A stretch of 36,268 nucleotides of DNA from a virus, in IMG/VR virus record IMGVR_UViG_3300025769_000355, positions 1 to 36,268 of that record; one strand, 5' to 3'. The stretch's first letter is position 1, and each line of letters begins with the position of its first letter. Below, piece after piece: positions 10,638 to 13,481 of the stretch. The notes under the pieces were generated by a model. The model saw nothing but the letters and a program-made list of their open reading frames with translations, was not told where the DNA came from and made no database searches. Both the position numbers and the translations under genes were made by a program.

Positions 10638-10666
10638 ATTATAGCATACTTTTCGATGAATGTCAA
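10638..10666 (-). promoter_or_regulatory. Perfect-consensus sigma70 promoter for the leftward arm
   Basis: On the minus strand the -35 is TTGACA (10661-10666) and the -10 is TATAAT (10638-10643), with exactly 17 bp between. Predicted start is near 10631, about 105 bases before the TerS gene. A perfect match to the bacterial consensus, together with the absence of a phage RNA polymerase gene, indicates transcription by host polymerase. Confidence 0.85.
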
Positions 10667-10842: not shown

Positions 10843-10954
10843 GGGACTAAGTCTCACATAGTGGAACTTGGGACTAAGCTGGGACTAAGCTGAAGAATCT
10901 TGGGACTAAGTAAGGGACTAAGCTGAAATCTTAAGGGACTAAGCTGGGACTAAG
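10843..10954 (+). repeat. Seven direct 9-bp iterons, GGGACTAAG
   Basis: Exact copies start at 10843, 10870, 10881, 10902, 10914, 10935 and 10946. Steps are 27, 11, 21, 12, 21 and 11 bp, so most copies lie near whole helical turns on one DNA face. A 20-bp double unit (two iterons joined by CT) occurs at 10870-10889 and 10935-10954. Arrays like this bind replication initiators or repressors cooperatively. No cognate protein can be named. Confidence 0.85.
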
Positions 10955-11059
10955 TCTCACTATTTGGAACTTGAGAGAATTTGAGAAGAAAGAGGGCGTG
11001 AGTGAGAATATTTAGGCAGTTGTCTCATTATGTGAAACACTTGTCTCATTATGTGAGAC
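10851..11059. promoter_or_regulatory. Four palindromic operator-like sites, GTCTCA-N5-TGnnAC
   Basis: Sites are at 10851-10867 (GTCTCA-CATAG-TGGAAC), 10954-10970 (GTCTCA-CTATT-TGGAAC), 11022-11038 (GTCTCA-TTATG-TGAAAC) and 11043-11059 (GTCTCA-TTATG-TGAGAC, a perfect inverted repeat). The last two are 21 bp apart, two helical turns. A half-site TGAGAC is at 10826-10831. The first two sites each begin on the last G of an iteron. The fourth lies between the -35 and -10 of a possible rightward promoter. This fits a dimeric repressor or activator. Confidence 0.7.
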
Positions 11060-12119: not shown

Positions 12120-12683
12120 ATGGAAAATACAAAATTAGATAAATTAGTAAATGACGGATTAAATGCAAACGATAACGGTTTCTGCACGGTGATTGCTCTT
12201 GCGGTGGCTTTTGATAAGACATATCAAGAAGCCGCCCAAATTATGAGGGGTTATGGCAGACGTCACCGTAAAGGAATGCACCGCCACGTGATGGAGTACG
12301 CCATACAAACCGAAGCAATAAAGCACGGCTACAGATACTCAGTTTATGACTCAGAACACGTTAGAGATGGCGAAATAAGAGTCAACGCACACAGAAGAAG
12401 AACGGAAGTTAGTGTGCAAGAGAAGTTCGGCGTAGTGGGAAAAATGACGGTCAATAATTGCCTTAGATATTTAAACCCAAAGAAAAAATATATTATAGGT
12501 GTTAGAGGTCACGCCGTCGCTGTTGCTGAGGGTAAGGTGCAAGATTGGACAGAGGGCAGAAGACATCAAGTTAAGCATATAATAGAATTAGACGCACCGT
12601 CTGAGAGTCCACAGAAGCCCGAAATTAAGCCGATAATTAAAAAGGCTAGTATGTCCCTTGATGATATGATATCATTGCTATAA
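12120..12683 (+). CDS. Possible papain-like cysteine protease or transglutaminase-fold early protein
   Basis: A 187-residue protein with a candidate catalytic layout: Cys22 in NGFCTVIALAVAF at the start of a helix, His131 in GVRGHAVAVAEG and Asp142 in KVQDW. A helical Cys followed far downstream by a His on a strand and an Asp/Asn a few residues later is the arrangement of papain-fold peptidases (C39/transglutaminase-like). The middle is rich in His and Arg (GRRHRKGMHRH), which could bind nucleic acid. The C-terminal ~40 residues are a Pro/Lys linker ending in MSLDDMISLL. Target and role are unknown; an early host-modifying enzyme is possible. A hammerhead ribozyme follows the stop codon. Confidence 0.7.
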   Translation: MENTKLDKLVNDGLNANDNGFCTVIALAVAFDKTYQEAAQIMRGYGRRHRKGMHRHVMEYAIQTEAIKHGYRYSVYDSEHVRDGEIRVNAHRRRTEVSVQEKFGVVGKMTVNNCLRYLNPKKKYIIGVRGHAVAVAEGKVQDWTEGRRHQVKHIIELDAPSESPQKPEIKPIIKKASMSLDDMISLL

Positions 12684-12690
12684 TTAACAA

Positions 12691-12749
12691 TCGAAACGCC
12701 CTGCGGGGCGTCTAGCAACACGGGCTAGGTTGCTACTGATGAGAAGCCC
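12691..12749 (+). ncRNA. Type II hammerhead ribozyme with loop I pseudoknot
   Basis: All core elements are in order. GAAA (12693-12696) leads into stem III, ACGCCC (12696-12701) paired with GGGCGT (12706-12711) around loop TGCG. C at 12712 is the cleavage-site base. Stem I is TAGCAAC (12713-12719) paired with GTTGCTA (12729-12735). The core CTGATGA is at 12736-12742. Stem II, the open one, is only G12743-C12692 and A12744-T12691. Loop I contains GGGCT (12722-12726), fully complementary to AGCCC at 12745-12749, a pseudoknot that could replace the usual loop-stem II contact. Predicted cleavage is between 12712 and 12713, splitting the mRNA of the flanking genes and leaving a hairpin on each end. 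Confidence 0.88.
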
Positions 12750-12761
12750 ACAAATAATAAT

Positions 12762-12779
12762 AATAACTATATGGAGATA
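12762..12779 (+). repeat. Duplicated leader element AATAACTATATGGAGATA, copy 1
   Basis: An exact 18-bp sequence that includes the ribosome-binding site (TGGAGA) of the gene at 12787. The second copy is at 13503-13520 before the gene at 13527. The match extends beyond the Shine-Dalgarno core, so the two genes share a 5'-leader, by duplication or by common regulation. Confidence 0.7.
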
Positions 12780-12786
12780 TACCAAA

Positions 12787-13188
12787 ATGGATAACTTAAA
12801 ACTAGAAACAATCGCAGATTTTTTAAGAGTTGATGCAGACCAAATCGAAGAGGGCTTAGGCGAAAATACATTCGAGTTCGGAAGTGAGGAATACTTAGTA
12901 GTGACAAATGAAGAAGCCTACGAAATAGCCGAAGAATATATAAAAGAGTCTGTTTGGGCATTTAGACCGTCTTTCCTTGCGGAGCATAGCAACGTAAGCG
13001 AAGACATATTTCAAGCACTACAGGAAAAATGCTATGAAGACGCTAACGAAATGATATTAAATTCAATTATTGATATTGATGATTTTGTTGATAGTGCGAT
13101 TAGCTGTGACGGTATCGCACATTTTTTGAATACCTATGATGGCGGAGAAGAAAGTCTAAACGATTTATACATCTACAGAATTAATTAA
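12787..13188 (+). CDS. Acidic early protein of unknown function
   Basis: A 133-residue, very acidic protein (MDNLKLETIADFLRV, then EEAYEIAEEYIKESVWAF and a C-terminal DGIAHFLNTYDGGEESLND). Similar small acidic proteins occur in many phages and plasmids, but I cannot name the family. High negative charge leaves DNA mimicry or enzyme inhibition open. The start at 12787 is chosen because GGAG lies 10 bases upstream; an in-frame TTG at 12730 would run through the ribozyme. Hammerhead cleavage would give this mRNA a 5'-hydroxyl end starting with a 7-bp hairpin. Confidence 0.72.
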   Translation: MDNLKLETIADFLRVDADQIEEGLGENTFEFGSEEYLVVTNEEAYEIAEEYIKESVWAFRPSFLAEHSNVSEDIFQALQEKCYEDANEMILNSIIDIDDFVDSAISCDGIAHFLNTYDGGEESLNDLYIYRIN

Positions 13189-13206
13189 TAATAGGAGATA
13201 ATGACA

Positions 13207-13434
13207 ATGATTAAATTTGAAACTGAACACTATCACGGTGAGATTAGAAAAGATAATACTTGGGGTTGGTTCGAGCATATCGAGTTAGGCGAGGACGGCG
13301 GAACAGGTAATTTTAAGATTGATATTAATGACGTTTACTGGGCGGTTGTTGATATGAATTATTGCTACGACCTACCGTCGGAGGTATATGAACTCTTAGA
13401 GGATAGAATCGAAGTACCACAGATGCAATTCTAG
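13207..13434 (+). CDS. Small acidic early protein, unknown function
   Basis: A 75-residue product beginning MIKFETEHYHGEIRKDNTWG, with alternating aromatic and acidic residues (WGWFEHIELGEDGG, NDVYWAVVDMNYCYDLP) that suggest a small beta-sheet fold. GGAG at 13194-13197 is 9 bases from this ATG; an in-frame ATG at 13201 is only 3 bases away and less likely. It sits 18 bp after the previous gene and is followed by a hairpin and a terminator. No family was recognised. Confidence 0.65.
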   Translation: MIKFETEHYHGEIRKDNTWGWFEHIELGEDGGTGNFKIDINDVYWAVVDMNYCYDLPSEVYELLEDRIEVPQMQF

Positions 13435-13481
13435 ACACTTTTATTGTCTAGCCCTACTAACCCCCTTGACTGGGGGTTTTT
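13431..13481 (+). terminator. Hairpin plus rho-independent terminator
   Basis: A 7-bp stem CTAGACA/TGTCTAG (13431-13451) covers the stop codon. It is followed by a classic terminator, AACCCCC-TTGACT-GGGGGTT with a T-run (13459-13481). It should end or thin out transcription from upstream before the gene at 13527. Confidence 0.8.

Follow-up and report, generated by a model that had tools for sequence, protein, structure and literature searches.

A predicted self-cleaving type II hammerhead ribozyme of a known kind between two early phage genes

The stretch of DNA analysed here (the window) is the 36,268-base IMG/VR record of an uncultivated phage; within it, a short structured element lies between two rightward early genes. 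The relevant features are as follows.

12120..12683, + strand: upstream early gene, 187 aa, PHROG 3754 family (annotated function unknown), stop codon TAA at 12681-12683
12691..12749, + strand: type II hammerhead ribozyme including the pseudoknot (Rfam RF02276 match, letter-by-letter check)
12691..12692, + strand: 5' strand of stem II, UC, pairing with GA at 12743-12744 (letter-by-letter check)
12693..12696, + strand: core GAAA, G12 being position 12693 (Rfam match, letter-by-letter check)
12696..12711, + strand: stem-loop III, 6 bp with loop UGCG, ACGCCC (12696-12701) pairing with GGGCGU (12706-12711)
12712, + strand: cleavage nucleotide C17, cut predicted at 12712/12713 from the family
12713..12735, + strand: stem-loop I, 7 bp with the 9-nt loop ACGGGCUAG, UAGCAAC (12713-12719) pairing with GUUGCUA (12729-12735)
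12722..12726, + strand: pseudoknot strand GGGCU, in loop I (letter-by-letter check, covariation)
12736..12742, + strand: core CUGAUGA, G8 being G12741 (Rfam match, letter-by-letter check)
12743..12744, + strand: 3' strand of stem II, GA (letter-by-letter check)
12745..12749, + strand: pseudoknot strand AGCCC, after stem II (letter-by-letter check, covariation)
12750..12786, + strand: A/U-rich leader with the Shine-Dalgarno sequence GGAG at 12772-12775, before the ATG at 12787
12787..13188, + strand: downstream early gene of 133 aa, for which no family was found; where relatives share the ribozyme, other small genes take its place

The stop codon of the upstream gene is located 7 nt before the ribozyme. 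The protein family encoded by this gene keeps C22, H131 and D142, and the structural model, which is of moderate confidence (pLDDT 68), resembles many viral proteins of unknown function; a tblastn search of phage isolates with the protein gave no match. A preliminary description of this DNA had called the gene product protease-like. We regard this as possible and not as established, because the matches of the model to solved PDB structures are weak; a few of them are to cysteine peptidases (PCAT1, ComA).

Several other signals surround the early genes. A terminator-like hairpin followed by TTTTT (13462-13476, + strand) stands behind the gene at 13201-13434 and may be the end of a transcript that starts at the predicted ribozyme cut. 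The divergent intergenic region at 10843-10976, which has the structural genes running leftward on one side and the early genes running rightward on the other, contains several copies of GGGACTAAG in iteron-like direct repeats of 30-31 nt. A perfect sigma-70 promoter (TTGACA and TATAAT separated by 17 nt, the latter preceded by TG) is found at 10638-10666 on the - strand and is aimed at the leftward structural genes.

In a scan of the whole window with 4227 Rfam families, the Hammerhead_II model (RF02276) matched 12689-12752 on the + strand over its full length (model positions 1-66), with 40.2 bits compared to a gathering threshold of 37 and an E value of 5.7e-05, and no other family matched with E up to 5. 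A match to opuB (12.1 bits, cut-off 75 bits) was rejected as noise. Both the identification as a type II hammerhead and the parts named in the preliminary description, i.e., the core, the 6-bp stem III, the 7-bp stem I, the 2-bp stem II and the GGGCU/AGCCC pseudoknot, are confirmed at the positions listed above, as is the location on the sense strand between two genes. Stems I and III are closed and stem II is open, as in the type II permutation. The core has the form CUGAUGA...GAAA with a cleavage nucleotide other than G, and loop I pairs with the 3' tail as in the majority of RF02276 members.

Base pairs were counted in ten gap-free related ribozymes from other phage contigs (alignment A3), which form a chosen subset because misplaced members had been dropped from the count (two from a 15-sequence alignment and L068 from an 11-sequence alignment). 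In this ten-member alignment 98% of 200 cells stay paired when the pseudoknot is included, compared to only 37-46% when the structure is slid by 1-3 columns, and 19 cells are changed on both sides versus 6.2 in shuffles, with none of 500 shuffles as high. Compensatory changes affect two pairs in stem III, three in stem I and one in the pseudoknot, six in all. The pseudoknot itself, which the preliminary description had proposed, is general to the type (PMC3088659), and its outer pair G12722-C12749 is replaced by A-U in three of the ten relatives. The outer pair of stem II is missing in two of the ten, and the core positions are invariant across all aligned relatives. Judged from these alignments, the element is a genuine type II hammerhead under selection, for which cleavage is predicted.

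Nested folding without the pseudoknot slightly favours an alternative hairpin CUAGC/GCUAG (12712-12716/12724-12728), with -20.9 versus -19.2 kcal/mol. Inspection showed this hairpin to be absent from relatives such as L004, L011 and L017, and a conserved alternative fold was rejected. An intrinsic terminator at 12696-12711 was rejected as well, because no U-run follows stem III.

A type II hammerhead (E up to 0.1) is present in ten of 50 IMG/VR records reached mainly via the primase/helicase gene, in nine of them over the cut-off, and further carriers detected by a lineage pattern include contigs of L217, L220, L223, L224, L225 and L226. In ten or more other contigs the equivalent place is occupied by a ribozyme of the window's type. 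Those of L011, L017 and L067 are 95-97% identical to that of the window, while in the same pairs the upstream proteins are 31-36% identical and the downstream gene is without counterpart. In L002 and L009 the ribozyme is identical to the letter and followed by different genes; in L009 the match to the window starts at 12609 and runs to the end of the ribozyme, and the sequence up to 12608 and that behind the ribozyme are divergent. At least five different small genes are found behind the ribozyme among the relatives. The window has one copy, L075, L165, L225 and L226 two each. In these four, two ribozyme subtypes in tandem enclose a few small genes (L075 4220-4763, L165 5100-5641, L225 3529-3888, L226 11068-11793), the second being the window's subtype and the first having ACGGCUGA as its loop and an AGCC tail set off by a longer spacer.

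In fifteen relatives covering the terminase-to-ssb interval, both the ribozyme and homologues of g11469, g12120 and g12787 are absent, which implies that this phage group can do without the ribozyme. L060, among the ribozyme-lacking relatives, was covered by the Rfam search alone, and L122, a distant phage with a type II hammerhead, is not counted among the negatives. Relatives that keep both flanking genes and have lost the core, which the preliminary description had named as counter-evidence, were looked for among the relatives and not found. Judged by DNA polymerase, the closest isolates are marine phages (HTVC103P with 49%; also Slicky01, CRP-113 and HTVC134P), none of which has a type II hammerhead. 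The 11.4-13.5 kb segment had no BLASTN match among phage isolates, and the lineage pattern was absent from 84,980 bacterial and archaeal species, each represented by one genome.

Type II hammerheads between phage genes are common. The preliminary description had considered a ribozyme at this place unusual, which is wrong, because at least 119 stretches in IMG/VR match one strict type II hammerhead pattern and named isolates carry such ribozymes too. Streptomyces phage Celia has two in the 3-kb stretch scanned, one of which (locus position 1498) starts at the end of annotated gene 71 and finishes just before gene 70, and Streptomyces phage Alvy (L244 1-3021) has five over the cut-off in 3 kb. 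Six over the cut-off are found in 4.4 kb of metagenomic DNA (L172 1-4381), and the dense arrays in L172 and L244 suggest serial processing of small genes. A further locus (L123 2661-4097) has four in 1.5 kb, all with UGGCA in loop I and with UGCC or CGCC in the tail.

The placement of these ribozymes follows a rule, as evident from 128 distinct type II hammerheads taken from phage contigs. A stop codon ending an open frame lies at most 15 nt before the ribozyme on the same strand in 88 (69%), compared to 11 (9%) on the opposite strand and 7% of random same-strand places. Similarly, a Shine-Dalgarno-like site with a start codon follows within 45 nt on the same strand in 108 (84%), against 14 (11%) on the opposite strand and 16% of random same-strand places. 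Pairing of loop I with the tail by at least four Watson-Crick pairs occurs in 58 of the 128, versus an average of 21 and a maximum of 34 when the tails are redealt. ORF length was dropped as a guide to the local coding strand; long antisense ORFs occur and make it uninformative.

From the sequence, structure, covariation and position rule we infer cleavage and an effect on mRNA stability or translation. The element is probably a working ribozyme that cleaves the early polycistronic mRNA co-transcriptionally and leaves a hairpin at each new end. Stems III and I would form as the RNA polymerase leaves the element, the pairing of loop I with the 3' tail would lock stem II alongside stem I, and self-cleavage would follow between C12712 and U12713. 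Since the type II topology places a closed stem on each side of the cut, each product would have a hairpin at its new end: the upstream mRNA would finish with stem III and a 2',3'-cyclic phosphate, 29 nt past its stop codon, and the downstream mRNA would open with a 5'-OH and stem I, 74 nt ahead of its start codon. Hairpins can reasonably be expected to protect both RNA ends, given what is generally known of RNA decay. The likely benefit is that neighbouring early genes obtain separate, end-protected mRNAs with independent half-lives. As to the role proposed in the preliminary description, a separation of the two mRNAs that tunes stability or translation, the part concerning mRNA processing is favoured by the arrangement of stop codon, ribozyme and Shine-Dalgarno sequence on the sense strand.

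We also have to consider a regulated ribozyme, in which cleavage is turned on or off depending on whether the upstream gene is translated, or by a factor of phage or host origin, with the result that gene output responds to conditions. A ribosome terminating at the stop codon would cover stem II and GAAA and could block folding, for which the close spacing here and in the phage-wide set, as well as the competing CUAGC/GCUAG fold, could be taken as indications. However, compact phage genomes would give close spacing too, the competing hairpin is not conserved, and the short loops contain no added ligand-binding domain, and we consider regulation unlikely. Rather improbable, in our opinion, is the broader proposal that phages widely employ type II hammerheads next to stop codons as a device in which cleavage is gated by translation termination of the upstream gene and which also marks the borders of exchangeable gene cassettes; if true, this would make the window one case among many.

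That the ribozyme DNA serves mainly as a conserved junction for homologous recombination swapping early-gene cassettes, with cleavage secondary, appears decidedly improbable. Ribozymes 95-100% identical amid different genes on either side, the extent of similarity with L009 and the variety of genes behind the ribozyme are consistent with such a junction, but the compensatory pair changes keep RNA structure and not DNA identity, and the sense-strand stop/Shine-Dalgarno rule needs an RNA role. The same covariation, in maintaining the pseudoknot, stands with the invariant core and the absence of a terminator-like U-run behind stem III against the very improbable case that only the two hairpins matter, for RNA stability or RNase processing, and that the catalytic core is incidental, even though stems III and I are stable hairpins. 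The probability of a chance look-alike is negligible. The motif is simple, and a relaxed hammerhead scan (stems of at least 4 bp) gave three matches in 300 genomes simulated with the size and dinucleotide content of the window. A stricter gapped pattern had no match in 100 shuffles. The Rfam match and the conservation at the equivalent place in other contigs contradict a chance origin, and covariation refutes it.

The window's ribozyme is thus real and well supported, and of a kind already known. Which role hammerheads play in prokaryotic biology is an open question (PMC6155905). The comparative placement and the pattern of gene exchange are the part worth following: the placement rule and a constant ribozyme between exchanged genes make one possible role, in which polycistronic phage mRNA is split into end-protected pieces, directly testable in cultured phages, e.g., in Celia and Alvy.

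A claim to novelty fails because the type II fold, the minimal stem II, the exact pseudoknot and the phage contexts were published in 2011, together with kinetics (PMC3088659). Similar ribozymes cleave at more than 1.2 per min in 0.5 mM Mg2+ and require the pseudoknot (PMC3088659). The window's ribozyme shares with RF02276 (Perreault et al. 2011, PMC3088659) the open stem II of 1-2 bp, the closed stems I and III, the standard core, the C at the cleavage site, the pairing of loop I with the 3' tail and the intergenic setting in phages or prophages; it differs in loop I, which is ACGGGCUAG in place of the common GUGGUG form, and in nothing else.

As in the haloviruses HF1 and HF2 (HHphage), the hammerhead is located just upstream of an early gene, a further precedent that speaks against the place being unusual. 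In these lytic phages the 5' end of the early transcript maps at most 3 nt from the cleavage site; HHphage is a core variant in an archaeal virus and lies 13 nt before the start codon, compared to 37 nt from ribozyme end to start in the window (PMC3088659). The clustered prophage hammerheads of Agrobacterium, Azorhizobium and Clostridium (PMC3088659), like those of Celia and Alvy, flank single small genes of inconstant identity, as here, but the window has one copy only. Triple arrangements from Agrobacterium self-cleave upon transcription in E. coli (PMC3088659). Finally, the pseudoknot replaces loop-loop contacts as in the crystal structure of a pseudoknot hammerhead (8YDC, PMC11300833) and in the pistol ribozyme, and fast cleavage is expected; there the pseudoknot takes the place of the whole of helix II, whereas the window's ribozyme keeps a stem II of 2 bp.
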